Part shown: piece by piece, positions 21,716-40,297 of the stretch
How the letters are laid out: the number at the start of each line of letters is the position of its first letter
Numbering within the stretch: the first letter of the stretch is position 1
Source: Truepera sp.
GTDB lineage: Bacteria > Deinococcota > Deinococci > Deinococcales > Trueperaceae
Reading direction: 5' to 3'
Assembly (NCBI GenBank): GCA_032027045.1
Contig: JAVSMU010000001.1
Location: 1,449,756-1,513,755 of the forward strand
DNA: 64,000 nucleotides
Made by a program: the position numbers and the translations under genes
The notes under the pieces: generated by a model
What the model was told of the DNA's origin: nothing
Seen by the model: the letters and a program-made list of their open reading frames with translations, nothing else
The model's database searches: none

Positions 21716-21792
21716 CGGGGCGTAGCGCAGTCTGGTAGCGCACCTGGTTTGGGACCAGGGGGTCGCTGGTTCGAATCCGGCCGCCCCGACCA
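21716..21792 (+). tRNA. tRNA-Pro (anticodon UGG)
   Basis: 77 nt. Acceptor CGGGGCG pairs with CGCCCCG, anticodon stem CCTGG/CCAGG with loop TTTGGGA giving UGG, T loop TTCGAAT, encoded ACCA. TATACT at 21664-21669 may be its -10 box. Confidence 0.94.
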
Positions 21793-21854
21793 CCGTTCGC
21801 CCACCGCGAGGCCTCTCGCGCAGCGCGACGGGCACGGGCGTAGTCCGACGCCGA

Positions 21855-21930
21855 GCGGGAGTAGCTCAGTTGGTAGAGCGACAGCCTTCCAAGCTGTAAG
21901 TCGCGGGTTCGAATCCCGTCTCCCGCTCCA
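21855..21930 (+). tRNA. tRNA-Gly (anticodon UCC)
   Basis: 76 nt. Acceptor GCGGGAG/CTCCCGC, anticodon stem ACAGC/GCTGT with loop CTTCCAA giving UCC, T loop TTCGAAT, encoded TCCA end. Confidence 0.94.
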
Positions 21931-21951
21931 CTTCATACGCCGGGGTAGCGC

Positions 21952-22027
21952 GCACCAGTAGCTCAGGGGATAGAGCAGCCGCCTTCTAAGCGGTAGGCCG
22001 AGGGTTCGAATCCTTCCTGGTGCACCA
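21952..22027 (+). tRNA. tRNA-Arg (anticodon UCU), island attachment target
   Basis: 76 nt. Acceptor GCACCAG/CTGGTGC, anticodon stem GCCGC/GCGGT with loop CTTCTAA giving UCU, T loop TTCGAAT, encoded ACCA. From 21987 its 3' part is identical to a second copy at 35232, so it is the integration site of the downstream island and was restored on insertion. Confidence 0.94.
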
Positions 22028-22033
22028 ATTCCC
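21987..22033 (+). repeat. Attachment repeat, tRNA-proximal copy (47 bp)
   Basis: Starts in the anticodon loop of tRNA-Arg(UCU) (TAAGCGGTAGG...) and ends 6 nt past its CCA. Identical to 35232-35278; the bases just outside differ (C versus A before, T versus C after). Confidence 0.9.
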
Positions 22034-22156
22034 TGGAGGACAGAGTTCCTGCCGCATGCTATCGGCTTGCGGACAGTTGCCTTGGATGCTAGGTGGGTAC
22101 CGCGGTGGCCTAGTTGGCTATGCGGGGGCCTTGCACTCCTACCGGGATAAAGCACC

Positions 22157-22393
22157 TTATCGAGGCGCTCCGCACCTTCTTCTCGGCAGGTAGGCAGGAC
22201 ATTGGCCATAAGCGTCAAGGGTGATAGCCGCGTTCGCGTGCCCTATACGCTCGCCAACTCCTTTGGGGTTTATGCCCATAGCCATTAGCAGCGTCGCGCG
22301 AGCATTGCACAGATCGGGGAGCCTAATAGAGCTGTCCAGCCCAGCGCACTTCAACACAGGCTTGAATGAGTCCTTCGGCCGGTCGTCGCCCAC
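22157..22393 (-). pseudogene. Tyrosine recombinase (integrase) C-terminal remnant
   Basis: 78 codons from a GTG. The stretch ARATLLMAMGINPKGVGERI followed by GHANAAITLDAYG matches the C-terminal catalytic region of phage integrases (normally HDLRHTHATLLL... and a final Tyr). The catalytic HxxR has become LPDLCNA, so even this piece is inactive, and an in-frame TGA precedes it. The rest of the enzyme is missing. Position and orientation beside the attachment repeat suggest the island's original integrase. Confidence 0.75.
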
Positions 22394-22682
22394 ACGCCTT
22401 CAATATTGGGATGTGGCACGGCGCCTCTCCAGTGGTGAGCTGCACCATGGCGCGCAGCCGCTGTCATTCGGTTAGTTCCGGGCGTGGAGAGGAACGGGTT
22501 CAGCTGAGTTGGCCCGCACCCACCTCAGACGGCGCCACGCCGCAGGAGACCGTGGACGCTGGTAAACTGGGCCCGTGTCTGAACTAGTGCGGCAAATCAT
22601 CTCCCGCGACCACTCATGAGCAATTGCCTAGAGTCTCAAGGCGAGAGCCAAGCCGTCAGCCAATCACATTTGCGTTCGCATA

Positions 22683-22865
22683 ATGGGCTTGCCGCTGGAG
22701 GAAATCTTCATCGCGCATCGAATCATCGCGGGGTTGTTGTCGGACGAGCTCGAGGAGCCCGTGTATCTATTGGATCGGGTTCCGGTGGCGGCGCCTGCAG
22801 GTTGCATCGTGCCGCTGTGTGACCTGCACCGTGAGGCGATGTGGGAGTTTGGCGAGGATAGTTAG
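22683..22865 (+). CDS. Hypothetical small protein
   Basis: 60 residues (MGLPLEEIFIAHRIIAGLLS start). Amphipathic and acidic, with no recognised family. No clear ribosome site. It lies in the island between the integrase remnant and rraA-like gene; it could be chance coding. Between 22394 and 22682 I see no gene. Confidence 0.3.
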   Translation: MGLPLEEIFIAHRIIAGLLSDELEEPVYLLDRVPVAAPAGCIVPLCDLHREAMWEFGEDS

Positions 22866-23004
22866 GCCGCCTGTATGAGTCCGGGTTGTGATGGGACGGC
22901 TCTTGGTTAGAGAGTGGAGGTTCCAAATCCTGCGGGGATAGGAACCTCCGACATGAGATTACAGGATTAGCGACATCGGCAAGTGTCACCGGTACCGCAC
23001 GCGC

Positions 23005-23682
23005 TCATATCCGTCCGAACCGGGTAAGCAACTCTTCGACTGTCGCTCCTTCGAGGATTGCCTTCCGCGCAGCCTCTTCCGCGTCGGCCTGCTCTCTGGC
23101 GCGCGGGTAGACCGCTGCCCAATCCTGCTGGGGCACGACCGTTACACCGATCTCATCGGCGACGACTAGATCTCCCGGATTAACGATGATTCCACCGCAA
23201 ACGACCGGCACGTTGATCCGAATCGGCTCACGGCGCCCAGAGTACGCGGTGTGCGCCGCACGTGGGCTGACGTGGCGTGAGGCAATCGGGAAGTCGAGGA
23301 GCTTCGACTCGTCGGTGTCTCGGACAGAGCCATCTACGACTGCGCCCACGACGCCCGCAGCCCACGCCAGGCCGGACATGAGTCCGCCCCAGATCGAAGT
23401 ACTTGACTCCCCAAACGCGTCGATTACCACTACCTGGCCCGGCTCAGCGATTTCAAAGATGTCCAGGCAGTCAACAATGTCGCCAGGCGTCAGCTTCACC
23501 GTGAGCGCATGGCCAATGAACGGCTTGTTCACGCTCCGGAACTTGATGTCAGGGTGCATCACATTTTCACGTTCCTGAGCGTCGGTCATCACGCACGAAA
23601 TGCTCAGCACGCCCTTAAGCGCAACCAACTTCCCAAGCAGTTCGCGATCGACGCGGGCGTTCGGTTCAATCATCTTGGTCAT
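23005..23682 (-). CDS. RraA-like aldolase/hydratase family protein
   Basis: 225 residues from the ATG at 23682, which follows AAGGAG. Belongs to the RraA/HMG-aldolase fold: GGLMSGLAWAAGVVGAVVDG followed by SVRDTDE is the conserved oxaloacetate/pyruvate-binding loop, with the Arg-Asp pair seen in class II pyruvate aldolases of this family (4-hydroxy-4-methyl-2-oxoglutarate aldolase). Middle AHTAYSGRREPIRINVPVVC and late NPGDLVVADEIGVTVVP are also typical. In this cluster it probably acts on a keto acid rather than on RNase E. Divergent from the IclR-led operon, sharing its regulatory region. Confidence 0.8.
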   Translation of the reverse strand: MTKMIEPNARVDRELLGKLVALKGVLSISCVMTDAQERENVMHPDIKFRSVNKPFIGHALTVKLTPGDIVDCLDIFEIAEPGQVVVIDAFGESSTSIWGGLMSGLAWAAGVVGAVVDGSVRDTDESKLLDFPIASRHVSPRAAHTAYSGRREPIRINVPVVCGGIIVNPGDLVVADEIGVTVVPQQDWAAVYPRAREQADAEEAARKAILEGATVEELLTRFGRI

Positions 23683-23729
23683 GCTCGACTCCTTCTGGGG
23701 CCAGTTCAACGGATGCCCACGCCTGCTCA

Positions 23730-23775
23730 TTGACAGGCACCGACCATTATGCTACTTTTTATCTACCAAAAGTAG
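23730..23775 (+). promoter_or_regulatory. Promoter with overlapping inverted-repeat operator
   Basis: TTGACA (23730-23735), 17-bp spacer, TACTTT (23753-23758). The -10 overlaps the left arm of a perfect inverted repeat, CTACTTTT at 23752-23759 and AAAAGTAG at 23768-23775 with an 8-bp centre. It lies between the divergent rraA-like gene and the iclR operon, so it is a good candidate site for the IclR regulator at 24385. The 5' leader to the next start is about 80 nt. Confidence 0.55.
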
Positions 23776-23848
23776 TTTTCATTACGTGAAAATGTGTTGT
23801 GCAGAATCCCAGCGTCGATTGATCAGCGCGGGCAGCACCTAGGGAATC

Positions 23849-24388
23849 ATGACCGACGCAACAACTCACCACCGCTCGTCGATTCGCGCCGAAAGCGTTG
23901 TCGGTGCGTCTGACGCGGACGGCGTGCTCGCTACAAGCTCGGGGTTCATGCTTGCACGCCGCCTCAGCCAGCTGACCGTCGAGACTGCGCTCGCTCTCCG
24001 GGCTCCCAAGTTGCCTGGAGCATTCACGCTCTCGGAAGGCGGCTTTGGGCGGAGTGCGGGAGCGAGGCGGACGGAGGTGGTCCAGCTGGATCTCAATGGG
24101 ACTGGGGGTCTGAAGCCGCTGAAGGTGCCGTTTGAGCGAAATCCTCTCGCCGAGGCCGGCCAGGTTGACGCGGTTGGTGAGGCTGCATCCCTTGCCGCAA
24201 TTGCGGACGAGTTGAGCGCCGGGAGCGGCCTGGTGCCCAGCTCGACTCACTGCAGCCGCGGTATGCTCGAGATCGCAAAGGCAGTTGAGGAACTCCACCG
24301 AGCAGTCGATTACGCTCCGCGCCTAACACGAGGCACGGCGGGAGTCGACAGCAGTGACCCGTCGACGGCCCCCGGGGTCACCCCATGA
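23849..24388 (+). CDS. Hypothetical protein upstream of iclR-like gene
   Basis: 179 residues, Ala/Leu/Gly/Ser-rich, with no recognised motif. In favour of a real gene: codon third positions are GC-rich in this frame, and its TGA overlaps the ATG of the IclR gene (ATGA), the same coupling seen through the rest of the cluster. Against: no ribosome site before ATG 23849 and a long open frame also exists on the other strand (23759-24298). If not coding, this is a 500-bp leader for iclR. Confidence 0.35.
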   Translation: MTDATTHHRSSIRAESVVGASDADGVLATSSGFMLARRLSQLTVETALALRAPKLPGAFTLSEGGFGRSAGARRTEVVQLDLNGTGGLKPLKVPFERNPLAEAGQVDAVGEAASLAAIADELSAGSGLVPSSTHCSRGMLEIAKAVEELHRAVDYAPRLTRGTAGVDSSDPSTAPGVTP

Positions 24389-25230
24389 GCGCCACGCCTC
24401 ACGGATCCGACGGTCGCTATAACATCCGCGTCCTGGACAGGGCGTTCCGCATGCTCGAGCTGCTTGCCGAGGGCACCGAGCTCACCCTCACCGAGATCAG
24501 CCAGGCGATCGGCCTCAATACGAGCACAACGTTCCGAATGGTCGCGTCGCTGGAGTTTCACCGCTACTTGTCGCGTAACGAGGAGAGCGGCAAGTACACG
24601 CTTGGCCTCGCCTGCCTTGAGTTAGCGAAGTCGTTCCAGGCGGCAAACGCCCTCTCTCGGCTAGCCGCGCCTGACCTCGAAGCCCTGCGCGACGACGTAC
24701 GCGAGACCGTACATCTGGCCGTGCTCGACGGATCGGATGTGGTGTATCTGCAGAAACTGCCGGGCCTCCACGCAATCGGGTTCATGGAGTCTAGCGTCGG
24801 CGGGCGCCTCCCCGCTTACTGCACTGGGCTCGGCAAGGCGCTCCTTGCTTATGCCGACCCGGATTACGTGCGTGGCCTAGTCGAGAGAGGGCATGGCGCC
24901 CTCGAGCGCTTCACTCCGAACACCATTACCGACGTCGATGAGCTCATGGACCAACTGATGACCATCCGCGAGCGGGGGTTTGCATTTGACTCGGGGGAGC
25001 ACGAGCCCGACGTCCGCTGCGTCGCTGTTCCCGTCTTTGGCAGGAACGGTGGAATTCAGGCTGCGATCAGCGTAACTGGACCCGCCAACCGAATGGAACC
25101 ACTCGAAGAGAACTGGGCCGTGATTCACGCGGCACTAGCCACCGCAGCCAAGGTCTCAATGAAGTTGGGTTTCGTTTCGAGCAACCCCCAACGCACCGCC
25201 AGTGGAGCGCCGGAGGAGGTGCGCCCGTGA
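24385..25230 (+). CDS. IclR family transcriptional regulator
   Basis: 281 residues. N-terminal winged helix-turn-helix (LTLTEISQAIGLNTSTTFRM, residues about 30-55) and a C-terminal IclR effector domain (GRLPAYCTGLGKALLAY, then FDSGEHEPDVRCVAVPVFG), which binds small organic acids. Local regulator of the catabolic cluster by position; the inverted repeat at 23752-23775 is its likely operator. Its TGA overlaps the GTG of the next gene (GTGA). Confidence 0.92.
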   Translation: MSATPHGSDGRYNIRVLDRAFRMLELLAEGTELTLTEISQAIGLNTSTTFRMVASLEFHRYLSRNEESGKYTLGLACLELAKSFQAANALSRLAAPDLEALRDDVRETVHLAVLDGSDVVYLQKLPGLHAIGFMESSVGGRLPAYCTGLGKALLAYADPDYVRGLVERGHGALERFTPNTITDVDELMDQLMTIRERGFAFDSGEHEPDVRCVAVPVFGRNGGIQAAISVTGPANRMEPLEENWAVIHAALATAAKVSMKLGFVSSNPQRTASGAPEEVRP

Positions 25231-26405
25231 CCGACCCCTTCACACGGATCCGCCGGCTCCAGGCGAGCATGCGTCACCACGGTCTGGACGCGATAGTCTG
25301 CCGCCTGCCCGAGAACGTCGTCTTCCTCAGCGAGCATTGGCCGATTCACGGAGTGTCCATCGCGGTGCTCGAGCAGGAGGGACGCGCGCACCTGCTGATC
25401 CCGGAGATCGAGACTGCCTATGCGAACCCCGACTGGGCCGACGTCGAGGTGTTCGGCTGGTCGCTCGTGAAGGACCGTGACTTGTACGAGGAGGTACGCG
25501 AGCGCCTGTCGCGCATCCGTGACGAGCGTGGCCTCTCCTCCGCTTGCATAGGAGTCGAGCAATCTTTTGAGGTGGTGGGGTCCAGCTACCGCGCTGCTGA
25601 GCCTATCGTGCCGGCCGCGCCGTGGAACGCTGCGTTGACCGAGGTCTTTCCCTCCGCCACACTCGTGGACTGCAGGCCTGCCGTTATCGACGCTCGCAAG
25701 GTCAAAAGTACGTACGAACTCGCCAAGCTGCGCAACGCCAACCGCATTGCCGAGATCGGCATGCAGCGATTCCTAGCTGAGCTGGAGCCGGGAATGACCG
25801 AAATCGAGCTCGGCGCCATGATTGAACACGCGATCCGCGCCGAAGGACCCGGCCACGACGGCGCGCGTCTGGTACGCGCGTCAGCCGAGGTATCCGCTGG
25901 GCCCCACAACTCCGCCAGAGCAGTCCTGCTCGTGCCCTCAACGGCGTATCGGATTCGGGAGGGGGACCTCGTCATGGTTGAACTCGGTGTTGTCGTCGAT
26001 GGCTACTGGGCCGACCTGACTTACATGGCGATTGCCGGACGGGAGCCGAGCGCCGAACAACGAGGACTCCACAACACCGTGCTCCGGGCACAGCAGGAAG
26101 CTGCCGACCAGATGCGACCGGGCCGCCCATGGTCGGCGCCTGACGAGGCGGCTCGCCGCGTCTTCAAGGACGCTGGTCTGCTCGACCACTTTCCACACAT
26201 TACCGGGCACGGGATTGGCTTTCGCTACCACGAGTCCGAGCCGCTTCTGGCCCCCGGCGCAGACCAACCACTCGAGGAAGGCATGGTCAGCAGCGTAGAG
26301 CCCGGCGTTTACCGTTTCGGCTCCGGCGGGATCCGGATCGAAGACATCGTGGCGGTCGGCGCCCAAGGACCGGAATTCCTGTCTACGCCGCGGGAGCCCT
26401 GGTGA
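25227..26405 (+). CDS. M24 family hydrolase (Xaa-Pro peptidase/creatinase fold)
   Basis: 392 residues: N-terminal creatinase-type domain (about 1-165) and C-terminal pita-bread domain. Metal-site region: VMVELGVVVDGYWADLTYM, ITGHGIGFRYHE, MVSSVEPGVY and IRIEDIV. The usual first Asp ligand is replaced by Glu (VELG), the other ligands (Asp, His, Glu, Glu) remain. Members include Xaa-Pro dipeptidases, ectoine hydrolase and creatinase; within a sugar or keto-acid cluster it may open an amide-linked substrate. Coupled at both ends (GTGA overlaps) with iclR and the kinase gene. Confidence 0.85.
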   Translation: MTDPFTRIRRLQASMRHHGLDAIVCRLPENVVFLSEHWPIHGVSIAVLEQEGRAHLLIPEIETAYANPDWADVEVFGWSLVKDRDLYEEVRERLSRIRDERGLSSACIGVEQSFEVVGSSYRAAEPIVPAAPWNAALTEVFPSATLVDCRPAVIDARKVKSTYELAKLRNANRIAEIGMQRFLAELEPGMTEIELGAMIEHAIRAEGPGHDGARLVRASAEVSAGPHNSARAVLLVPSTAYRIREGDLVMVELGVVVDGYWADLTYMAIAGREPSAEQRGLHNTVLRAQQEAADQMRPGRPWSAPDEAARRVFKDAGLLDHFPHITGHGIGFRYHESEPLLAPGADQPLEEGMVSSVEPGVYRFGSGGIRIEDIVAVGAQGPEFLSTPREPW

Positions 26406-27520
26406 CGACGCCCACGAACCCGGTGACGCCGCAGATCGTCGCGCTGGGCGAGGTCATGATCCGTGACACACCGCGCGACCTGCAGCGGCTCGAAAGCACC
26501 CGCGAGGTCTTCGTGTCCCCGTCGGGGAGCGAGTACACCGTCGCGCTGCTCGCCCGACGCCTGGGTGTCCCCAGTGCCTATGTCACCCGCCTACCGGACA
26601 ACCCGTACGGCTGGATGATTCGCGACATCGCCCGGGCTCACGATGTCGACGTCTCGGGCTTCGTCTGGGCGCCGGCCTGGGAGCCGATCGGCCGCTACCT
26701 CTACGAGCTCGGTCGCGAGCCCCGCCCAAGTTACGGCTGGTACCAGCGTGCCGGCTCGGCCGCTGCGCGGCTCGGGCCGGGCGAGGTCGCCTGGAAGGAA
26801 TTACTGTCGAGCGCGCGAATCCTGCACACCTCTGGGATTACGTTCGGCCTTGCGTCGCACGCCGGACTGGCCAATAATCCGCTTCTCGCTGCGTTCGAGG
26901 AGGCCGTTTCGGCACGCCCAGAGGGGTGCGCGGTCGGACTCGACTTCAATTATAGATCGACGCTGTGGAGTAAGGAGGAGTGCCGCGGCGTCCTTGAGGG
27001 TGTGCTTGTGGACCACACGGACATCCTGATGACGTCCCCATATGACATGGCGCAGCACTTTGCCATCGGTTTTGCCACCAAGGCGCCCGAAGACGTGCTT
27101 GAACAAGGGCTCACAGCGCCGGAGGACGACGAGTTACACGACTTCTGCTTGCGCGTCCTAGAGCGTTTCGACTTGGACACCGTCGCGGTTACGCTCCGGC
27201 AACCCCGGTCTTTCACCGAGCACCTGTGGGAGTCTTGCGCCATGCGTGCGGACGGCAGCTTTGCCCGCTCGAAGACGCCTCGACCGATCCGAGTGTTGGA
27301 CCGGCTGGGGGGTGGCGACGCGTGGACAGCTGGCTTCTACGCGAGCCTTCTGCAGGGTGACGGTGGTGAGGGTGCGCTCGAAAGCGCAATCGCTTTCGCT
27401 GATGCCTCGACGCGTCTCGCTCAGACACTAATGTTCGATCTGGCCGTGCTGCGAGCGGAAGACGTCCGCGCACTCCTCGACGCCGACGAGGCCGGCTATG
27501 CGCAGGGCACCATCCGTTGA
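26402..27520 (+). CDS. PfkB family carbohydrate kinase
   Basis: 372 residues. Ribokinase-fold sugar kinase phosphorylating a sugar or keto-sugar acid with ATP. Visible: N-terminal VALGEVMIRDTPRD strand, VSPSGSEYTVALLARRLGVP (substrate region), CAVGLDFNYRSTLW typical of KDG-kinase-like members, and the C-terminal signature RLGGGDAWTAGFYA carrying the catalytic Asp. 2-keto-3-deoxygluconate kinase is one possible role given the DapA-type aldolase in the same island, but this is inference. GTG start overlaps the preceding stop. Confidence 0.88.
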   Translation: MTTPTNPVTPQIVALGEVMIRDTPRDLQRLESTREVFVSPSGSEYTVALLARRLGVPSAYVTRLPDNPYGWMIRDIARAHDVDVSGFVWAPAWEPIGRYLYELGREPRPSYGWYQRAGSAAARLGPGEVAWKELLSSARILHTSGITFGLASHAGLANNPLLAAFEEAVSARPEGCAVGLDFNYRSTLWSKEECRGVLEGVLVDHTDILMTSPYDMAQHFAIGFATKAPEDVLEQGLTAPEDDELHDFCLRVLERFDLDTVAVTLRQPRSFTEHLWESCAMRADGSFARSKTPRPIRVLDRLGGGDAWTAGFYASLLQGDGGEGALESAIAFADASTRLAQTLMFDLAVLRAEDVRALLDADEAGYAQGTIR

Positions 27521-27538
27521 GCCGCGAAAGGAGGCCCC

Positions 27539-27619
27539 TTGGAAGCACAGACCCTAGCCGTCCAAAGCTCGACTCAGCTTGCGTCCGTTAGCCCCGTCAA
27601 CCCGCTGCAATTGCGCTGA
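27539..27619 (+). CDS. Possible 26-residue leader ORF with strong ribosome site
   Basis: TTG at 27539 follows AAGGAGG (27527-27533) with 5-nt spacing and reads 26 codons to a TGA at 27617-27619. The TGA overlaps the AAAGGA ribosome site of the binding-protein gene at 27632. No resemblance to a known peptide (starts MEAQTLAVQSSTQL). It may only couple translation across the gap, or be a small protein, or a decayed gene. Confidence 0.35.
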   Translation: MEAQTLAVQSSTQLASVSPVNPLQLR

Positions 27620-27631
27620 AAGGATGTACCA

Positions 27632-28630
27632 ATGAAGAGAATTTCACTCGTACTCAACGTCATGCTCATCCTGGGCTTCGTCATGGCCCAGTCGTACATG
27701 CCCCCCGGTAATGCACTCCCACCGGTGCCCCTGGCCGAAGGTGCCCAGGCCACATGCCAAGGCCTGGCTCCAGGAGACAGCATCCGTATCGCCTACATGC
27801 CCCCGGCCACCGAGTTCAATTACTACATGGACATCGGGAAGGGCATCAAGGCGCTGGCGGCGGAGCGCGGCGTCGATACCTTCATGTTGGCGCCGCAGAG
27901 CGGCTCTGATATCGCCGGGCAGATGGGGATGATTCAAGACGCTATTACGCAGGGCGTTGACGCGATCATTCTCTCCACGCACGACGAGAACGCCGCCGCC
28001 CCTCTCGTGCAGCGCGCCGTCGAACAAGGCATCGCAATCATTATCGTGAACTCCGACATCGCCGACTTCCCAACCCCTGTGCACGGCGTCGTCGGCTACT
28101 CACAACGCGGCGGAACTTTCGAAGAGGGCCAGTACCTGATAGGCCTTGTCGACGGCAAGGCGAAGGTCGGCGTGCTCGAAGGCCTGCCCGGCTACCACTC
28201 TACTGAGCGTATCGGTGGCTTCCTCGATGCGTTCGCCGAACAGCCCGGCATGGAGATCGTCACGTCACTGCCTACCGAGTGGAACGTCGAGACCGGCAAC
28301 AAAGCGATGATGGACCTCCTGCAGGCACACCCTGAAGTCACGATGGTCGTGACGGCTAACGACTACATCGCGCTCGGAGCCGCTGCGGCCGCTCAGGCGC
28401 TCGGCCGCAGCGATGTGATCATCGCGGGCAACGACGGTGACCCAGCAGGCCTAGAGGCCATCGCACAGGGCCGCATCACATCGACCGTCAACACCCAACC
28501 GGTTGAGATGGGCAAGGTCGCGCTACAGGTTGCCATAGACTGCCTCAACGGCGTGTACCCCGGCGGCTGGACCGAAACGCCTTCAGTGATTGTCGACAAG
28601 TCGAACGTCAGCGAATACCTTGGACAGTAG
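27632..28630 (+). CDS. Sugar ABC transporter, periplasmic binding protein (RbsB type)
   Basis: 332 residues with a signal peptide (about 1-20, cut near VMAQS). Type I periplasmic binding fold, family 4: RIAYMPPATEFNYYMDIGKG, GVDAIILSTHDENAAAPLVQ (second strand-helix), GKAKVGVLEGLPGYHSTERI, and the late GNDGDPAGLEAIAQGRITST. Ligands in this family are pentoses, hexoses, autoinducer-2 and sugar alcohols. Strong ribosome site (AAAGGA). A perfect hairpin right after the gene probably protects its mRNA, giving more binding protein than ATPase or permease. Confidence 0.9.
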   Translation: MKRISLVLNVMLILGFVMAQSYMPPGNALPPVPLAEGAQATCQGLAPGDSIRIAYMPPATEFNYYMDIGKGIKALAAERGVDTFMLAPQSGSDIAGQMGMIQDAITQGVDAIILSTHDENAAAPLVQRAVEQGIAIIIVNSDIADFPTPVHGVVGYSQRGGTFEEGQYLIGLVDGKAKVGVLEGLPGYHSTERIGGFLDAFAEQPGMEIVTSLPTEWNVETGNKAMMDLLQAHPEVTMVVTANDYIALGAAAAAQALGRSDVIIAGNDGDPAGLEAIAQGRITSTVNTQPVEMGKVALQVAIDCLNGVYPGGWTETPSVIVDKSNVSEYLGQ

Positions 28631-28646
28631 TCCACGCACTTACGAC

Positions 28647-28672
28647 GGTAGGACGCCAGTTGGCGTCCTACC
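28647..28672 (+). other. Perfect 11-bp hairpin between binding-protein and ATPase genes
   Basis: GGTAGGACGCC, loop AGTT, GGCGTCCTACC. No T run follows, so it looks like an mRNA processing or stability element rather than a full terminator. Confidence 0.6.
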
Positions 28673-28691
28673 CCATCACGCCGGAGGCCGG

Positions 28692-30242
28692 ATGACGGAA
28701 TCTGGAGCCTACCCCCCCCTGTGGCGCCTGGACGGAGTCAGCAAGCGGTTCTATTCGGTGCGCGCTCTTACCGGCATCGACGTGGTGTTCCCTAGGGGTG
28801 AGGTGCACGCCCTCGTCGGTGAAAACGGCAGCGGCAAATCCACGCTCGTCAAGTGCCTGGCCGGCGTCCATCGGCTGGACGAGGGCGCCCTCTATCACGA
28901 CGGATCCCACGTGACCCTTGGCCACCCGCTTGACGCCCGGGCCCACGGGGTGGCGACCATTTTCCAAGAGTTCTCGCTCGTGCCGACCCTCAGCGTGGCC
29001 GAGAACGTATTCTTGGGCCGGCAACCGGTAATGCACGGCCCGTGGGTTGACTGGGACCGCATGCGCGAAGAGACGAGCCGCGCGCTAGGCGAGCTAGGCT
29101 CCACCACCGATCCAGACACGATTGTCGGACATCTCTCTGTGGCTGATCAGCAACTCGTCGAGATTGCAAAAGCCATCTCCCTAAACTCCACTCTCCTGAT
29201 CCTCGATGAGCCCACCGCCGCCTTGGGATATCAGGAGACGGAACGGCTTCTCGGGCTCGTCCGCGATTTGGCGCGCCAAGGTAAGGCGATCCTTTACATT
29301 TCGCACCGGCTCGACGAGGTTTTCCGTGTAGCGGACCGCATCACCGTCCTCAAGGACGGTAGGTTGGTGGCCACCAAGCCGATTCAGGACGTCGACATGA
29401 ACTCCGTCGTACACATGATGGTCGGCCGCGACATCGAGCAACATTATCCGAAGCAGTCCTCTAAGACCAACCGCGTCCGCCTGGCCATCCGTGCCCTGAC
29501 GACTGAGCGGGGTGTGGACGGGGTGAGTTTCGATGTGTGCGCGGGTGAGGTATTCGGGTTGGGCGGCATGGTGGGCGCAGGTCGCACCGAGATCGCCCGC
29601 GCCCTCTTCGGACTCGACCGCGTCGCATCGGGCAGCATTGAACTCGACGGTACACCGGTTTCCATCGGCAATCCCGACGAGGCGATCGCGGCCGGAATCG
29701 GGCTGGTTCCCGAGAACCGCAAAGCTGATGGACTCTTCTTCAACTTCGACGGGCCCCGCAACATCACGACGTCCAAGTGGTCGCGCATCATGCGCGGGTT
29801 GGTCTTCGACCTGGCGCGCGAGCGAGAGGTCGGGCGAAGCTACGTCGACTCGCTCAAGATCACTCCCACCGCCATGAGCACCTCCGTGCGCTTCCTCTCC
29901 GGAGGAAACCAGCAGAAGGTGGTAATCGCCCGCTGGCTCTATTCCGAGGCAAAGGTGCTGATCCTTGACGAGCCCACCCAGGGCATCGACGTCGGGGCCA
30001 AGCTCGACGTTTACGGCGTGATCAACGACCTTGCCGCGCAGGGCGTGGCTATAATCCTAATCAGCTCGGATTACCCCGAACTCCTCGCGATGAGCGACCG
30101 GATTGCCGTCATCCGTAATGGCACCGTGGTGACCATCTTGCCTGCCGACGAGATGACCGAGCACCGTCTCATCGCTATCGCCTCGGGCGCCGAAGTACCT
30201 CCCGAGCCGCCCCACCCCGCCAACCGAAGGGCCACCGCATGA
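28692..30242 (+). CDS. Sugar ABC transporter ATP-binding protein, double NBD (RbsA type)
   Basis: 516 residues from ATG 28692, with GGAGG at 28683-28687. Two ATPase domains: the first has GENGSGKSTLVK, LSVADQQLVEIAKA and LLILDEPTAALG; the second has a degenerate Walker A (GMVGAGRTEIARAL, normal for RbsA second domains), LSGGNQQKVVIARWL and VLILDEPTQGIDVG. It energises import by the permease at 30239. Its stop overlaps the permease ATG. Confidence 0.93.
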   Translation: MTESGAYPPLWRLDGVSKRFYSVRALTGIDVVFPRGEVHALVGENGSGKSTLVKCLAGVHRLDEGALYHDGSHVTLGHPLDARAHGVATIFQEFSLVPTLSVAENVFLGRQPVMHGPWVDWDRMREETSRALGELGSTTDPDTIVGHLSVADQQLVEIAKAISLNSTLLILDEPTAALGYQETERLLGLVRDLARQGKAILYISHRLDEVFRVADRITVLKDGRLVATKPIQDVDMNSVVHMMVGRDIEQHYPKQSSKTNRVRLAIRALTTERGVDGVSFDVCAGEVFGLGGMVGAGRTEIARALFGLDRVASGSIELDGTPVSIGNPDEAIAAGIGLVPENRKADGLFFNFDGPRNITTSKWSRIMRGLVFDLAREREVGRSYVDSLKITPTAMSTSVRFLSGGNQQKVVIARWLYSEAKVLILDEPTQGIDVGAKLDVYGVINDLAAQGVAIILISSDYPELLAMSDRIAVIRNGTVVTILPADEMTEHRLIAIASGAEVPPEPPHPANRRATA

Positions 30243-31225
30243 GGCAGCGGCTGCTTAGCTCCAACGTGATTGGTCCCTTCGCAGCGCTAATTCTTGTCGT
30301 GATCGTGGTGAGCCTGACGACGGACCGGTTCTTATTACCGCAGAACCTGTCGAACGTCACTCTCCAAGTTAGCAGCGTGGCCTTCGCAGCAATCGGAGCA
30401 ACGCTGGTAATCCTCGCCGGTGGCATCGACTTGAGCCCCGGGGCCGTACTCGCGCTCTCTAGCTGCACGTTGGCGATTCTGGTCAAGACATTGGGCTGGC
30501 CGATCGAGGTGGCGATTCCCGTCACGCTCATGCTGGGTGCGTTGCTAGGGCTGATTAATGGCCTGCTGAGCACTTACCTCCGCATCCCATCCTTTGTGGC
30601 GACCCTCGCGACTCTCACGATCTATCGCGGCCTGGCCTTCTTGATCACCGGCGGAACTCCCATCTTTTCTATCTCGCCCAAGCTGCGCCCCCTCTTCTAC
30701 TGGTCGTTTCTGGGCATCCCGCTGCCCGTTTACTACGTGGTCGTGGCGTTCGGCCTCACCGCTCTATTCCTTCGGTACACCGTGCCTGGCCGCGCCATTT
30801 ACGCTGTGGGCGGCAATGAATCGGCCGCCCGCTTCACTGGAATCAAGGTGAACCGGACGCGCATGCTCACCTTTGTGATTGCCGGCCTGACGGCGGCCGC
30901 GGCGGGCGTCCTTACCACCGCGCGCCTGGACTCCGGGTCGCCAAACTACGGCGTCGGCCTGGAGTTGCAGGCGATCGCTGCTGCAGTAATCGGTGGCGCA
31001 AGCCTGGCCGGGGGCTACGGCAGCATCATCGCCACGCTCTTTGGGGCCCTGATCGTCGCCGTGGTCCAAAACGGCCTAAACCTCAACGCTGTCCAGGCAT
31101 CCTGGCAGCAGATTACGCTCGGCACGATCATCGTTCTTGCGGTCGGCCTGGACATGTGGCGCAAGGATCTCGGTGCAGCGCTCCGCCGGCTGTTTCGCCG
31201 GCCCGGGCAGAAAGGATCAACATGA
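30239..31225 (+). CDS. Sugar ABC transporter permease (RbsC type)
   Basis: 328 residues, about 9-10 membrane segments. Family features: ILAGGIDLSPGAVLALSS near TM2-3, GLINGLLSTYLRIPSFVATL, and IYAVGGNESAARFTGIKVNR, the cytoplasmic coupling loop typical of RbsC/AraH/XylH permeases. ATGA overlaps at both ends with the ATPase and VOC genes. Confidence 0.92.
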   Translation: MRQRLLSSNVIGPFAALILVVIVVSLTTDRFLLPQNLSNVTLQVSSVAFAAIGATLVILAGGIDLSPGAVLALSSCTLAILVKTLGWPIEVAIPVTLMLGALLGLINGLLSTYLRIPSFVATLATLTIYRGLAFLITGGTPIFSISPKLRPLFYWSFLGIPLPVYYVVVAFGLTALFLRYTVPGRAIYAVGGNESAARFTGIKVNRTRMLTFVIAGLTAAAAGVLTTARLDSGSPNYGVGLELQAIAAAVIGGASLAGGYGSIIATLFGALIVAVVQNGLNLNAVQASWQQITLGTIIVLAVGLDMWRKDLGAALRRLFRRPGQKGST

Positions 31226-31737
31226 GCAAGCCATATCCCCGCGCGTTCTCGCATATCGGCCTCTCGGTCAGCGACATCGACCGTTCGTATAAGTTCTACA
31301 CAGAGGTCCTCGGGTTCTACACCATCATGCCCCCAACCGAAGTCGAGCAGGACGACAGCGCAATCGGAATAATGTGCGACCGCGTGTTCGGTGCAGGCTG
31401 GGGGCGGTTCAAGATTGCTCACCTGTCAACCGCCGATAAGGTTGGAATTGAGCTCTTCGAGTTCCCGGACAACTACCCTCCCCAGAACAACCTCGAGTAT
31501 CGCAAGCTCGGCATATTCCACTTCTGCATCCAGGATCCAGACATCGAAACGCTGGCCAAGAAGATCGTGGACGCAGGCGGCAAGCAGCGTATGCCGATAA
31601 GCGAGTACTATCCCGGCAAGAAGCCGTATCGAATGGTCTACTGCGAAGACCCGGATGGCAACCTCCTCGAGCTGTATTCACACAGCTATGAACTTACCTA
31701 CTCCCCCGGCGCCTACCAGCATCAGCTCGACGAGTAA
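31222..31737 (+). CDS. VOC family protein (glyoxalase/dioxygenase fold)
   Basis: 171 residues. Two beta-alpha-beta-beta-beta units with metal-site candidates His in FSHIGLSVSDID, Glu in GIELFEF, His in IFHFCIQD and Glu in GNLLELYSHS. The fold covers glyoxalase I, extradiol dioxygenases, epimerases and sugar-processing lyases; the spacing is closest to lactoylglutathione-lyase-like proteins. In this cluster it may isomerise or cleave a catabolic intermediate. ATG overlaps the permease stop, and AAAGGA is upstream. Confidence 0.85.
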   Translation: MSKPYPRAFSHIGLSVSDIDRSYKFYTEVLGFYTIMPPTEVEQDDSAIGIMCDRVFGAGWGRFKIAHLSTADKVGIELFEFPDNYPPQNNLEYRKLGIFHFCIQDPDIETLAKKIVDAGGKQRMPISEYYPGKKPYRMVYCEDPDGNLLELYSHSYELTYSPGAYQHQLDE

Positions 31738-31746
31738 GGAGGAGCC

Positions 31747-32736
31747 GTGACCGTTCGCCGCGCCAGGATCGTCATCAGCGACTACGACTATGGCGACGTG
31801 GAAGTGGAGCGCGCGATTATCGAGGGTGCCGGACACGAGCTGGTTGCCCTCCAGTGCCGTACCGATGAGGAGCTCGCCAGAGAAGCTGCGGGCGCTGTAG
31901 GCATCCTCTGCCAATACTGCCGCGTCGGCGCGAAGACAATCCAAGCGATCGACTCGCTGCGGCACATCGCCCGCTACGGCGTCGGCGTGGACATCGTGGA
32001 CGTGGCCGCGGCTGCCGAGCGCGGCGTCCTCGTGACCAACGTCCCGCACGACTACTGTCTAGACGAAGTCGCCGATCACGCCATGGCGCTGATGCTCGCT
32101 CTGACCCGCAAGCTCCGTGTTTACGATCGCGCCGTCCAGGACGGAGTCTGGCACTGGCAAAGTGGCCGCCCGCTATACCGGCTTCGCGGCAGCGTGATGG
32201 GCATATTGTCGCTGGGCAACATCGGTCGCGCAATCGCCGCCCGCGCTCAGGCGTTCGGGTTTGAGGTGATTGCCCACGACCCCTACGTGAATGACGGCGT
32301 GTTCAATGAGACTGGCGTCGAGCGCGTGTCGTTCGACGCGCTCCTCCGGCGCTCGGACGTCCTGATGAACCAAGTACCGCTCACCAAAGAAACGCGAGGA
32401 CTGATCGGTGTCGACGAGCTGAGATCCATGAAGCCGACCGCCTACCTCGTCAACACTGGCCGCGGGCCCACCGTCGACAACCAGGCCCTCCGCGAGGCGC
32501 TCGACGATGGGCGGCTCGCAGGCGCGGCGCTGGACGACCTAGAGGAGGAGCCAGCCAAGCGGCGCGACTGGACGCCGACCGAGAGTCCCCTAGTCGGACA
32601 TCCCAAGGTTATCGTCACGCCACATGTGGCGTACTACTCGGAGGCGTCCATCGAAACAGCCCGGAGCTTCGCGAGCGAGGAGATCGTGCGCGTCCTCGCG
32701 GGCAAGCCGCCGCGGACGCCTGTGAACCCGAAGTAG
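31747..32736 (+). CDS. D-isomer specific 2-hydroxyacid dehydrogenase
   Basis: 329 residues. NAD(P)-dependent reduction of 2-keto acids or the reverse. NAD-binding GILSLGNIGRAIAARAQAFG (GxGxxG variant, S-L-G-N-I-G), substrate Arg in NTGRGPTVDNQAL, Glu in LDDLEEEP, and catalytic His in VTPHVAYYSEAS. The region VTNVPHDYCLDEVADHAMAL resembles the C-terminal-binding-protein subgroup. Last plus-strand gene of the cluster; GGAGG (31739-31743) lies before the GTG. Confidence 0.9.
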   Translation: MTVRRARIVISDYDYGDVEVERAIIEGAGHELVALQCRTDEELAREAAGAVGILCQYCRVGAKTIQAIDSLRHIARYGVGVDIVDVAAAAERGVLVTNVPHDYCLDEVADHAMALMLALTRKLRVYDRAVQDGVWHWQSGRPLYRLRGSVMGILSLGNIGRAIAARAQAFGFEVIAHDPYVNDGVFNETGVERVSFDALLRRSDVLMNQVPLTKETRGLIGVDELRSMKPTAYLVNTGRGPTVDNQALREALDDGRLAGAALDDLEEEPAKRRDWTPTESPLVGHPKVIVTPHVAYYSEASIETARSFASEEIVRVLAGKPPRTPVNPK

Positions 32737-33286
32737 GTCTGGCCGGCGAAGCATGCCGGACGTCACTATCAATATCGTCGGCCACTCGACAAGCTGGGCC
32801 CCTCGCGCACTTAGATGCACCTCGCGGAACTGTGCGAACTCGACTGGTGCCGTGATCGATGGTGGCGGTTCCCACGCGCTAGGATCTCTCAGCACAGCGC
32901 CGCCTCCGCCTCGACCGCCAGGAAGCGGCGCGGTTTGCAGAGGACCAGCAGGTTGACTTCGGCCGAAAGAATCCAGCTTCCCCAAGCTTTGGACGAAGCG
33001 GGTGAGGACGTAGTCGAGCAACGGAACGCTGCTGTACGGTCGCCAGTATGCGGGCACCCGAGATCGACCGCAATCAGGGTGCGGCGCACAGACACAATCG
33101 ACCATCGCGAGGTGGGGCACTATGAGCGCCAAATAGGAGTCGCACGTGGCCTTGCCGCTACGGCGGTGGTAGTCCAGCTAGAAGCCAGCCTCGGCCGCCT
33201 GTACGTGACGGTTGGCGTCGACGTTTCGGTGCATGTTGCTCACAGCAATGCAGGGGAGTCATAGCGCTCTCGATCAGGAACCTGGC
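32737..33286. other. Intergenic, no gene recognised
   Basis: 550 bases between the convergent dehydrogenase and the small gene at 33287. Open frames on both strands exist but none gives a plausible protein; the sequence may be decayed cargo of the island. Confidence 0.35.
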
Positions 33287-33424
33287 CTAGGCTCCAAGCC
33301 CAACGTGCCGCCAGTGGTGTGAAATGCAAAGTCGCGCCCACAGGGAGCAGGGCGTACGGAGCTGCTGCAGGAACGCCCGCATCTCCATGCTGATCGCGCC
33401 GCCAGCATTGAGCCACGGCTTCAT
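33287..33424 (-). CDS. Possible truncated gene after the aldolase
   Basis: 45 codons from an ATG overlapping the aldolase stop by one base (TGATG). It begins MKPWLNAGGAISMEMRAFLQ, which reads like the true N-terminus of a protein, then runs into an unlikely tail and stops. I suspect the 5' end of a lost downstream gene of the aldolase operon. Family not recognised. Confidence 0.3.
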   Translation of the reverse strand: MKPWLNAGGAISMEMRAFLQQLRTPCSLWARLCISHHWRHVGLGA

Positions 33425-34299
33425 CACATCGCCTCCAAATCGGTGAGGATCGGCGCGAGCGCCTGCTCGACCCGCGCGCGCTCGTCGTCGCTCAGGTCGG
33501 CGAGCGGCGTGCGGACTGGGCCGAGGTCGACGCCGCGCAGCCGTATCGCGGTGCGCGTCGCCATCAGGTAGGGGTGCGCACCGAATAGCTTGCGCAGGGT
33601 GTGGATGCGCTCAGCCCAAGGCGCGAGGTCAACGCCATCTTCGAAGGCCCGGGTCGCGCCCACCACCACGTCGGGGAAGGTGTTAGCCATACCTGAGGCG
33701 ATCCCCGAGGCGCCGGCCTCCAACCCTTCGAGCAGCGTGGTGTCGCTGCCCATCAGGAAGTCGAGGTAGGGGACCGCCACTCGGACCGCCCGCAGGTACG
33801 AAAGGTCCTGCGAGCTGTCCTTGATGCCGACGCACACCCCCTCGACCGCGAGCGCCGTGACGGTGGCGACGGGGATGCTGAAGCGAGTGTAGCGCGGGAT
33901 GTTGTAGAGGTAGATCGGCCCGCCGAAGGCGTCGGCGACGCGACGCGCTAGCTCGGCGAAGGCCGGCTCGGTGATTGGGAAGTAGTAGGGGGGCAGCAGC
34001 GACACGTCGCTGGCGCCGACGCGTGCCGCGTGGGCTGCCAGCCTCAGGACTTCGTGGGCGACGGTGCCGCCGACGTTGGCGACCACCCGTCGTCCTTGCG
34101 CGGCAGCGACGTGCGCCTCGAGTACATGTTCGCGCTCATCGACCGCCAGCGAGGCGAACTCGCCGTTAGTCCCGAGCGCTAGGAAGCCATCGACGCCATG
34201 GCCGATCAGAAAGGCCAGGTAGTCAGGTAGGCGCTCGAGCGCGAGGCTGCCGTCGGGTCCAAACGGCGTCAAGGTGGCAGCGAGGACGGGGTGCTTCAC
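33424..34299 (-). CDS. DapA/KDG-aldolase family lyase
   Basis: 291 residues. Class I (Schiff-base) pyruvate aldolase/lyase of the DHDPS superfamily: early GFLALGTNGEFASL (the GTTGE-like loop), Tyr in PIYLYNIPRY, Schiff-base Lys in GVCVGIKDSSQDLSYL. The superfamily includes DapA, N-acetylneuraminate lyase and 2-keto-3-deoxygluconate aldolase; housekeeping DapA is unlikely in an island with sugar-acid genes, so a keto-sugar-acid aldolase is preferred. GTG 34299 overlaps the SDR remnant's TAG, implying a former operon. Confidence 0.87.
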   Translation of the reverse strand: MKHPVLAATLTPFGPDGSLALERLPDYLAFLIGHGVDGFLALGTNGEFASLAVDEREHVLEAHVAAAQGRRVVANVGGTVAHEVLRLAAHAARVGASDVSLLPPYYFPITEPAFAELARRVADAFGGPIYLYNIPRYTRFSIPVATVTALAVEGVCVGIKDSSQDLSYLRAVRVAVPYLDFLMGSDTTLLEGLEAGASGIASGMANTFPDVVVGATRAFEDGVDLAPWAERIHTLRKLFGAHPYLMATRTAIRLRGVDLGPVRTPLADLSDDERARVEQALAPILTDLEAM

Positions 34300-34682
34300 T
34301 ATGCGGCCTCCGGTCCGCGCATGCGACGCAGGTAGTAGTCCCGGTCGTCGCTCCGGACCCACCGGTCGAGCCTGATGCCCCCCAGGCGCGCGGGCAGGCC
34401 CCCGACGAGTAACGCGGTCGGTTCGTCGAAGATAATCACGGTATGCAGATCGTGACACTGGTTGGCCGGCTTGTCTCGGAAGAATCCGGTATCGACGTTC
34501 GCCGGCGGGTAGACGGTATTGACATTCACGCCGGTGCCGCAGGCATCGACCACAATGGCGTATGTGAACGTCTCCAGCGCCGCTTTCCGGCAGCAGAGCG
34601 AGGAGGCGACGATGAACCATCGCTTGGAGCTGCGCCCCAACCATTTGTTGGTGCCTGCGTAGTACGTGTCCTGCGCGTCCAA
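34299..34682 (-). pseudogene. SDR oxidoreductase remnant
   Basis: 127 codons. Only the C-terminal part of a short-chain dehydrogenase/reductase is readable: RKAALETFTYAIVVDACGTG, then VNVNTVYPPANVDTGFF and a final GGIRLDRWVRSDD. The Rossmann nucleotide-binding half is missing and the catalytic YxxxK appears as CCRKAA (Tyr lost). It precedes the aldolase gene in one transcript orientation, so it was probably part of the same pathway before decay. Confidence 0.6.
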
Positions 34683-35231
34683 CTAGCCATGGTTCTCCGC
34701 CTCAAACTCCCCCTACAATTCCTGCTCCTCATTGGCCTACTCGTGCGTCACCAAGCTGCGCCTCGGTGAGTATCAAACCATCTTGCGCTACATTAGCCGA
34801 GGACGCCTTGGGTCTGAGCATTATGGTGACTAAGTCGTTACGCATCCAAATCTAGAGCGCCCCCGAAGGTTGCACTTTCAGGGCGACCTCTTCCAGGCCG
34901 TTAGTGGCGCGCACCGGCCACCAGGCTGGTTGCGCGATGGCCAGCCGCGAGGCGACCACCTTGGTCTCGGATTGCGGGCCCTGACTCTTGTCGGAGTTCC
35001 ATACGTGTTGCTCTGGGTGACCAACTCGGCATTGTACGAGCCGATGGCCGATTCCCTGAAGGAGTAGCATGTAGAAGAGTCACCCCGCCAGTCCGCGCTG
35101 GGTACCTGTCGGGTACCAATGGGCCCAAGCTGGCCGTTATGGCCCTATCTCAATCGAACTTCAACTCCAGGTTAGTGCGTCTAGAACGATGCATTCGTAC
35201 CCATAGAGCCTGAACCTGAGCATAGAACTAA
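34683..35231. other. Intergenic end of the island, no gene recognised
   Basis: 549 bases between the SDR remnant and the second attachment repeat. Only short frames without recognisable content; base composition is less GC-rich than the flanks. Confidence 0.35.
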
Positions 35232-35278
35232 TAAGCGGTAGGCCGAGGGTTCGAATCCTTCCTGGTGCACCAATTCCC
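35232..35278 (+). repeat. Attachment repeat, distal copy (47 bp)
   Basis: Exact copy of 21987-22033 without the 5' half of the tRNA, so it is not a functional tRNA. Marks the far end of the island. Confidence 0.9.
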
Positions 35279-35674
35279 CGAGGCGCGGGCTCTTCGAAAT
35301 GCTCTAGAGCTCGCCACTCGTCCGACTGGACGTCGCGCATGGCCCGGGCGAACAAGAAGGAATGCTTCACGGTTCAGGCAACTACTACTCGTTCAGTCCT
35401 CGGTGAACAACGCGCCACCATCGATACGCGAAAGGTCCACTCACGACTGTTGATCTACGGGCGGCGCCCGGCGCGCGCCCCTGGGAGCGGCAATCACCCC
35501 TGAGCAAGCCTGCGCCGCCAATGGGGTGCCTTGGACCCATTTGTATCAACTATGGCGCCCTACTGAGCAGTCCAGGATCGTATCGCCACCATATGCCATA
35601 GTTACACTGTAACGATCCTCTTGACAACGGAACCCTGAGAAGCGCACTATATGCACCGAAACGGAGGAAATGGA
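35279..35674 (+). other. Intergenic with palindrome and promoter before the cupredoxin-like gene
   Basis: No gene recognised. GTTACACTGTAAC (35601-35613) is a perfect odd-centred palindrome. Eight bases later TTGACA (35621-35626) starts a plausible promoter with CACTAT (35645-35650) at 18-bp spacing. The palindrome may be a regulator site for the gene at 35675. Confidence 0.4.
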
Positions 35675-36577
35675 ATGGCTTCACGCCCAGTGGACGCCCT
35701 CATCCGCCACTTTGCCGCACCAGCAAGACTCGCGCGGCTCACCCTTCTAGGCTGCTTCCTTGCGCTGGGCTTTGCCCACGCCGCTGCAGACGTCAGCGTC
35801 GAGTTCATGAACGGCGCTCTCACGGCTCCGCAGACCTTCGCGGGCACCGGGTACCATTCCATCGCACTGGTCAACAGCAGCGACCAGCTCGCCACTTTCA
35901 GTTTGGTTCGCCTACATCCTGGGACGAGCCTGGGTGACTACACGAAGGCGAACGATGCCCTCAACCAAACCAAAGACGGCGACGGCGACGCCGCGGTGGC
36001 AGCCACGAAGGCGCTGTTGGCGCTAGCCGACGCCCTAAGCGGCACGGACGTGAAGCCGCACGCCGAGATCACCATGTACACCGACCTCCAAGCCGGGACG
36101 TACGTCGCTTCAGCCCTCCCCGCTGACGAGCAAGGACCCACGGGTCCGACGGTCTACGCTCTGTTCATGGTCACGGAGTCAGGCAGCCCAGCGGCAGCAC
36201 CCGAGACCCCTTACGTCGTGCACTTCTCGGACTTCGCCTACGACTTCCCGGCCACTATCGAGGCGGGCACGAACCTCTGGCAGATCAGCAACACGGGCGA
36301 ACAGCCTCATATCGCGGTCTTCTTCAAGCTCCTACCCGGCAAGACGCAGTCCGACCTGGTGGCGGGCCTGAGCGACGAGACGGGCGAGAGCGGCCCACCA
36401 CCCTTCGATACCGATATGGTCTTCGAATTGGAGGCACTGTCCGCGGGCCAGACCGTCTACCTGCCGCTCGACTTCGCGCCGGGCAACTGGGTGGCCGTCT
36501 GCTTCGTGCAGGACCTGGACGATCCAGAAGTGATGCACGCCATGGAGGGAATGATCCAGGAGTTCGCGGTCAACTGA
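35675..36577 (+). CDS. Secreted cupredoxin-like protein
   Basis: 300 residues from ATG 35675, with GGAGG 7 nt upstream. Signal peptide at about 1-37 (ends FAHAAADV). The C-terminal ~125 residues look like a plastocyanin/amicyanin-type domain: strand FSDFAYDFPATIEAGTN, His in EQPHIAVF, then Cys in WVAVCFVQD, His in VMHAMEG and Met in GMIQEF, in the His-Cys-His-Met order of type 1 copper sites. The N-terminal ~140 residues form a second, unassigned beta-rich domain. Role in copper binding or electron transfer outside the membrane is inference. Confidence 0.6.
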   Translation: MASRPVDALIRHFAAPARLARLTLLGCFLALGFAHAAADVSVEFMNGALTAPQTFAGTGYHSIALVNSSDQLATFSLVRLHPGTSLGDYTKANDALNQTKDGDGDAAVAATKALLALADALSGTDVKPHAEITMYTDLQAGTYVASALPADEQGPTGPTVYALFMVTESGSPAAAPETPYVVHFSDFAYDFPATIEAGTNLWQISNTGEQPHIAVFFKLLPGKTQSDLVAGLSDETGESGPPPFDTDMVFELEALSAGQTVYLPLDFAPGNWVAVCFVQDLDDPEVMHAMEGMIQEFAVN

Positions 36578-36602
36578 GCCGGTCGACTTACACGCGGCGA
36601 AG

Positions 36603-37088
36603 ATGGCCGTGAACGTCCTGTTCCTCTGCAGCGGCAACTCCTGTCGCTCGATCATCGCTGAGGCAGTGTTCAACCACCTTGCCCCCGCCGGTTGGAAGGC
36701 GATGAGCGCCGGCAGCCAACCGACGGGGCAGGTGCATCCGCGCACGCTGGCCTTGCTGGAACGCTCGGGAATTGCGACCGAGGGTCTGCGAAGCAAGTCC
36801 TGGGAAGGTCTACCTGAGGCGCCGGACATCGTCATCACTGTTTGTTCCAGCGCCGCTGGCGAGGCCTGCCCCTCCTATCTAGGACCGGTGCCGCGCGCGA
36901 ACTGGGAAGTGGAAGACCCGGCGCGCGTGACGGGCGCCGATGCAGAGATCGACGCCGCGTTCGCCAGCGCCTACCTCGTCCTTCGGGCGCGCATCGAAGC
37001 CTTCCTGACCCTGCCCCTGCGCGAACTCTCGCACGACCGCGAACTGCTGAAGACCGAGCTCGATCGCGTTGGCACGCTTCTCGGTTGA
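36603..37088 (+). CDS. arsC: Arsenate reductase / low-molecular-weight phosphatase family
   Basis: 161 residues. Catalytic P-loop CSGNSCRS (Cys9 to Arg15) of the LMW-PTPase fold, followed by the redox pair Cys81 and Cys89 in CSSAAGEACP, the arrangement of thioredoxin-coupled ArsC (reduction of arsenate to arsenite). Asp general acid probably in EVEDPARV. No arsenite exporter or ArsR gene is adjacent, so the role in arsenic resistance is by family only. Starts 25 nt after the cupredoxin-like gene and may be co-transcribed. Confidence 0.85.
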   Translation: MAVNVLFLCSGNSCRSIIAEAVFNHLAPAGWKAMSAGSQPTGQVHPRTLALLERSGIATEGLRSKSWEGLPEAPDIVITVCSSAAGEACPSYLGPVPRANWEVEDPARVTGADAEIDAAFASAYLVLRARIEAFLTLPLRELSHDRELLKTELDRVGTLLG

Positions 37089-37197
37089 TCGGCCTCTCGA
37101 CTGCCGAAGAACACAACTGTTTGTCCGTTCACAGCCTGCCTGTCGCAGAAATCCGTCCAGGAGATCAACTCGTGACCCAAGGCGAAGTCTCCCGAAA

Positions 37198-38232: not shown

Positions 38233-38354
38233 CCGCTCCTTACGCCAACCCGGCGGTGCGCAAGTCTACGCTCTGCCGGGGCCGGCGCTTGGGTCGCATG
38301 CACGGCACACGCCTTCCAAGCCACTAACTCCGCTCCTTACAACCCCTCGCAACG

Positions 38355-40214: not shown

Positions 40215-40297
40215 CGTCGGTTCCCCCGGTGAAGCGCGAACTGGTCGCTCGCCCGGAGTATACGGCCCGCCGAACTCCCGCGGCTGCGCTAGGGCGT

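Follow-up and report, generated by a model that had tools for sequence, protein, structure and literature searches.

Site-specific integration into tRNA genes leaves a characteristic signature, in which an intact tRNA gene is accompanied by a displaced, co-oriented 3' fragment of itself; the islands described with the program Islander include an anticodon-centred (A) class of attachment site and have a size peak at 13.6 kb (PMC4383910). Islands of Pseudomonas bharatica CSV86 (PMC9298801) are likewise integrated at tRNA genes and carry catabolic cargo, but they exceed 50 kb, and a conjugative element is among them. We describe here a 13.2-kb block in the genome of Truepera sp., contained within a 64,000-nucleotide stretch that we analysed as a whole and refer to as the window. 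With a probability of a little over 0.9, we read this block as a tRNA-targeted integrative genomic island, now fixed, that carries a sugar or sugar-acid operon.

Three tRNA genes (tRNA-Pro, tRNA-Gly and tRNA-Arg(UCU)) are consecutive at 21716-22027. The last of these, the target gene (21952-22027, plus strand; identified by ARAGORN), is intact and is syntenic in the congeners G002-G005. The 3' part of tRNA-Arg(UCU), starting at the last (third) anticodon base at 21987 and running through the encoded CCA and six further bases (ATTCCC), constitutes a 47-bp repeat, TAAGCGGTAGGCCGAGGGTTCGAATCCTTCCTGGTGCACCAATTCCC, identical at 21987-22033 (attL, plus strand) and 35232-35278 (attR, plus strand). 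The second copy is a displaced tRNA 3' fragment, and the arrangement, an intact tRNA gene with its fragment downstream and co-oriented, is that of a tDNA island. The complete 2.92-Mb genome, searched with up to three mismatches, contains just these two copies, both in the same orientation; a reversed control pattern has no match in it, and the chance of an exact 47-mer match in 3 Mb is negligible. Among 39 genomes of the family that were scanned, only the Truepera genome has two copies of the 41-bp tRNA part, while 18 others have one. From repeat to repeat the element measures 13,245 bp, within the 2–200 kb range used to define such islands (PMC4383910). A sequence-only reading of the window had proposed an island at this tRNA between 47-bp exact repeats, the tRNA 3' half and six extra bases recurring at 35232-35278, and this observation is confirmed.

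At 110 bp inside the tRNA end of the island is a decayed C-terminal fragment of a tyrosine recombinase (22138-22378, minus strand), which points toward the tRNA and is split by a frameshift into two frames (22202-22378 and 22138-22218). Profile scores are low, with E = 0.016 for Pfam Phage_integrase (below the Pfam cut-off) and E = 0.0016 for the PHROG integrase, but pairwise comparison with a homologue in genome G007 is clear, at 44% identity over 76 amino acids (E = 1.4e-14). The fragment covers part of the catalytic domain, only about 75 residues, and the N-terminal part is not recognizable. The conserved Arg-His of the LRHT motif of its homologues is lost, the motif reading LCNA, and with this change and the shifted frame the enzyme is, judged from its sequence, very unlikely to be functional. 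A tyrosine recombinase is thus found inside the interval and beside the attachment site, as expected of a tDNA island although sub-threshold in Pfam, and its probable role as the recombinase of this island is assigned by position and homology; the intact integrase of an active integrative element is absent. The earlier proposals that a recombinase remnant lies just inside the tRNA end, and that its breakage has probably fixed the island, both hold. There is no tRNA gene and no convincing pair of attachment sites around the G007 homologue.

In a genome of another genus, G054, a homologous recombinase, also decayed, lies downstream of tRNA-Arg(UCU) in matching orientation, with its start approximately 160–180 bp from the tRNA gene (locus L101, positions 120-687, contig C340). 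This lineage of recombinases therefore appears to have used tRNA-Arg(UCU) on two or more occasions, or on a single very early one. At the same locus, 215-272 and 3891-3948 form an imperfect 58-bp repeat pair, which may bound a 3.7-kb element. A broader proposal, that tRNA-Arg(UCU) is a hotspot throughout the Trueperaceae at which one tyrosine-recombinase lineage moves compact metabolic modules between genera, rather than phage or defence genes, is speculative and we consider it unlikely.

The site was compared in five congeners. Four of these (G002-G005), in which MiaB is 83-86% identical, share the order MiaB, NUDIX, tRNA-Pro, tRNA-Gly, tRNA-Arg, MFS gene, tRNA-His, tRNA-Leu, and the MFS transporter gene (40311-41501, plus strand) is the first conserved gene to the right. 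By blastn homology the gap between tRNA-Arg and the MFS gene is ~100 bp in G004 and ~290 bp in G002; G003 and G005 have ~2.8 kb and ~1.5 kb of other DNA there, and the fifth congener, G001, has other genes after tRNA-Arg. All five have one copy of the repeat, and the cargo DNA finds no counterpart in them beyond short stretches, mostly of ABC-transporter genes. The same gene order lacking only the second repeat, the arrangement that would speak against an island, was not encountered, as none of the five has either the cargo or the second repeat. The empty tRNA-Arg(UCU) site called for by the sequence-only reading is thus present in nearly unoccupied form in G004 and G002, but the exact junction joining 21986 to 35279 is seen in no congener, the right flank being itself accessory. 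The block missing from the relatives extends from 22034 to ~40290 (~18.2 kb; homology resumes at ~40293 by eye and at ~40354 by blastn) and is longer than the 13.2-kb island; the bounds originally given, 21987 and 35278, stand as those of the repeats, but not as those of the DNA that relatives lack.

The tRNA-Arg(UCU)–tRNA-His interval is a variable spot. Different genes occupy it in different relatives (L034, 6064-8855; L036, 5860-7351; L037, 3375-9459; L045, 5771-9587; coordinates refer to the reverse-complemented loci). The segment to the right of attR (35279-40290), absent at this site in relatives, encodes a secreted protein without a Pfam family match (35651-36577), an LMW phosphatase-family protein (36603-37088), an AI-2E transporter family protein (37198-38232, minus strand) and an SLFN-g3 helicase/DUF2075 protein (38355-40214, minus strand). 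Two more copies of the secreted protein gene, at 67-68% nucleotide identity, are present in the same genome, and it has relatives at other loci in three congeners. The variability of the spot thus extends past the ends of the 13.2-kb island itself and, given accessory DNA to the right of attR as well, the site had probably either been occupied before the island inserted or gained more DNA afterwards.

One version of this history, and the main rival for the flank, is a composite or tandem island. The older of two elements, spanning 35279 to ~40290, would have entered at tRNA-Arg(UCU) and lost the repeat on its right, and insertion of the 13.2-kb island between this element and the tRNA would have followed. 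Such a history agrees with our reading of the 13.2-kb part and differs from it only on the flank. The end of the missing block at ~40290 rather than 35278 in G002-G005 speaks for it, as do the variability of the site in other relatives and the presence of the SLFN-g3 helicase gene elsewhere in the genomes of G001 and G004. However, no third or degenerate copy of the repeat was found to the right of 35278 as far as 45000 (22034-45000 compared for shared words as short as 9 bases), no second recombinase remnant was found at 35279-35660 in six frames, and the GC3 values of the AI-2E and SLFN genes are near those of the core. We therefore regard the composite island as possible but doubtful.

The island proper contains ten intact cargo genes. 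An RraA-like aldolase family protein (23005-23730, minus strand; Pfam PF03737) is followed by an IclR-family regulator (24385-25230), an M24 (creatinase/prolidase-like) hydrolase (25227-26405) and a PfkB sugar kinase (26402-27520), all three on the plus strand; these four proteins are 91%, 81%, 85% and 87% identical, respectively, to proteins of G042, a genome of another genus in the same family. Next, also on the plus strand, are the genes of a sugar ABC transporter, with an RbsB-like binding protein (27632-28630), an RbsA/AraG-like ATPase (28692-30242, with the start codon chosen in this analysis) and an RbsC-like permease (30239-31225), and then a VOC/glyoxalase-family protein (31222-31737; TIGR03645, above the cut-off) and a member of the D-2-hydroxyacid dehydrogenase family (31747-32736). 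A DapA/KDG-aldolase superfamily protein (33424-34299) is on the minus strand. Gene ruins occupy 32740-33420 and 34300-35231, the latter possibly with a minus-strand remnant of a short-chain dehydrogenase (SDR; a weak match, E = 0.066). Two candidate genes were rejected: the SDR of a related Chloroflexi cluster, for which the match in the island is not significant, and an Eda-type aldolase, for which a single Eda-like match at ~23888-24235 has E = 1.4e-6 against a tiny database and is not trusted.

Among solved structures (PDB), the sequences nearest to the PfkB kinase are 2-keto-3-deoxygluconate (KDG) kinases, and those nearest to the RbsB-like protein are binders of ribose and other sugars. 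None of the cargo genes reaches the equivalog cut-offs of KDG enzymes, the NCBIfam matches below them denoting family-level similarity, and so the substrate can be proposed only at the level of class. From these assignments the cargo is predicted to be most likely an operon for the uptake of a sugar or sugar acid, or of a conjugate opened by the M24 hydrolase, and for its breakdown via a 2-keto-3-deoxy acid; the IclR protein would be its regulator. The description of the cargo as a whole catabolic system in the initial reading agrees with the ten intact genes, but has to accommodate the gene ruins and a substrate that is specified only by class.

Prophages often carry a tyrosine recombinase and sit at a tRNA gene, and 13 kb is in the size range of satellites, so that the island might be seen as a decayed prophage or satellite remnant that acquired metabolic genes. 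We consider this improbable: none of the annotated island ORFs is a phage structural, replication or packaging gene, such as would mark a prophage, and the recombinase fragment has no match to phage records at E≤1e-5. Relaxase and type IV secretion families, by which an integrative conjugative element would be recognized, are likewise absent among the island ORFs.

Base composition changes across the boundaries in both GC and GC3, a comparison that the sequence-only reading had suggested. Nine of the ten cargo genes have GC3 values of 0.72-0.81, against 0.83-0.93 in the neighbouring core genes tested; the DapA gene (0.86) is closer to the core composition than the other cargo. Judged within the window, GC drops to ~0.60-0.65 across most of the island and tetranucleotide distance is modestly raised.

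A close relative of the kinase is present only in G042, both among genomes of the family and among 111 genomes of the phylum, and among named relatives of a cargo gene the nearest comes from a Trueperaceae MAG, at a locus that corresponds to G042. Across RraA, IclR, M24, PfkB and part of RbsB, protein identity between cargo and G042 is 76-91% and DNA identity 83-85%, whereas core DNA of the Truepera genome and G042 is mostly 64-74% identical (one gene, 82%), although the G042 operon is on a 5.3-kb contig of a fragmented, 77%-complete MAG and could be mis-binned or from another species. Identity of the cargo above that of the core points to a probable horizontal transfer of the operon. The left neighbour of the G042 operon is a small unrelated ORF, not a recombinase and tRNA. 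More distant relatives of IclR, RraA, M24 and PfkB, at 51-58% identity, are found in Chloroflexi MAGs, and at one Chloroflexi locus a KDPG-aldolase-type gene is clustered with IclR, RraA, M24, PfkB and RbsB/A/C-type genes. Locus L058 (1-10894; Chloroflexi) contains genes for an Eda-type aldolase, IclR, RraA, M24, SDR and PfkB and two RbsB genes, one of which is 70% identical to the island RbsB. Plasmid relatives of the kinase, at ~30% identity only, were set aside. An alternative takes the cargo to be ancestral, with loss from every congener sampled, and the second 47-bp copy to be a partial tRNA duplication. It could draw on the close operon copy in another genus of the family but is the least probable of all. 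The operon would have to have been lost independently by the five congeners and by almost every other genome of the family, and the remnant of a recombinase, the presence of an exact repeat at either end, the GC3 values and the excess of cargo over core identity would go unexplained.

For the integrative island that we favour, we infer the following order of events and route of transfer. A tyrosine recombinase encoded beside the attachment site would have joined the attP of the element with an attB inside tRNA-Arg(UCU), the tRNA being restored by the element's copy of the 3' part and the original 3' part being displaced to 35232-35278. The element would have delivered a presumably IclR-regulated operon for an RbsABC-type importer, a KDG-kinase-like PfkB protein, a hydroxyacid dehydrogenase and a DapA/KDG-aldolase-type lyase, together with an RraA-like aldolase, an M24 hydrolase and a VOC protein. 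Later decay of the recombinase would have made the operon an inherited chromosomal trait.

Gene transfer targeted to tRNA genes is a well-known kind of event, but its preservation here is unusually good: the attachment sites can be read, some congeners show the site nearly empty, and another genus has a close relative of the cargo. A search of the literature for islands in the Trueperaceae returned nothing on point, the terms co-occurring only in passing, and this instance was not found in the literature searched. The locus offers a precisely bounded case in which an operon for uptake and breakdown would have entered a lineage of the Deinococcota by site-specific recombination and been fixed by loss of the recombinase, and it singles out tRNA-Arg(UCU) as a site worth searching for lineage-specific genes in the Trueperaceae.

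Among described systems, the CSV86 islands (PMC9298801) resemble the Truepera island in tRNA integration and catabolic cargo; the Truepera island differs from them in its size of 13 kb, its lack of transfer genes and its sugar-type cargo. The cargo itself is like the KDG/KDPG sugar-acid clusters with RbsABC importers, such as L058, in bringing together IclR, RraA, M24, PfkB and RbsB/A/C-type genes, the first four at 51-58% identity. The two differ in that an Eda-type aldolase and an intact SDR are found in L058, and a DapA-type lyase and a hydroxyacid dehydrogenase in the Truepera island. Unlike the 'putatively active' set of Islander (PMC4383910), the Truepera island has only a broken fragment of an integrase, and a fixed remnant of this kind would not necessarily be listed there. 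In its architecture it is nonetheless like the islands of that collection, bounded by an intact tRNA gene and a co-oriented 3' tDNA fragment with a tyrosine recombinase at the tRNA end; its length of 13.2 kb is near the 13.6-kb size peak, and the start of its repeat at the anticodon fits the anticodon-centred class.
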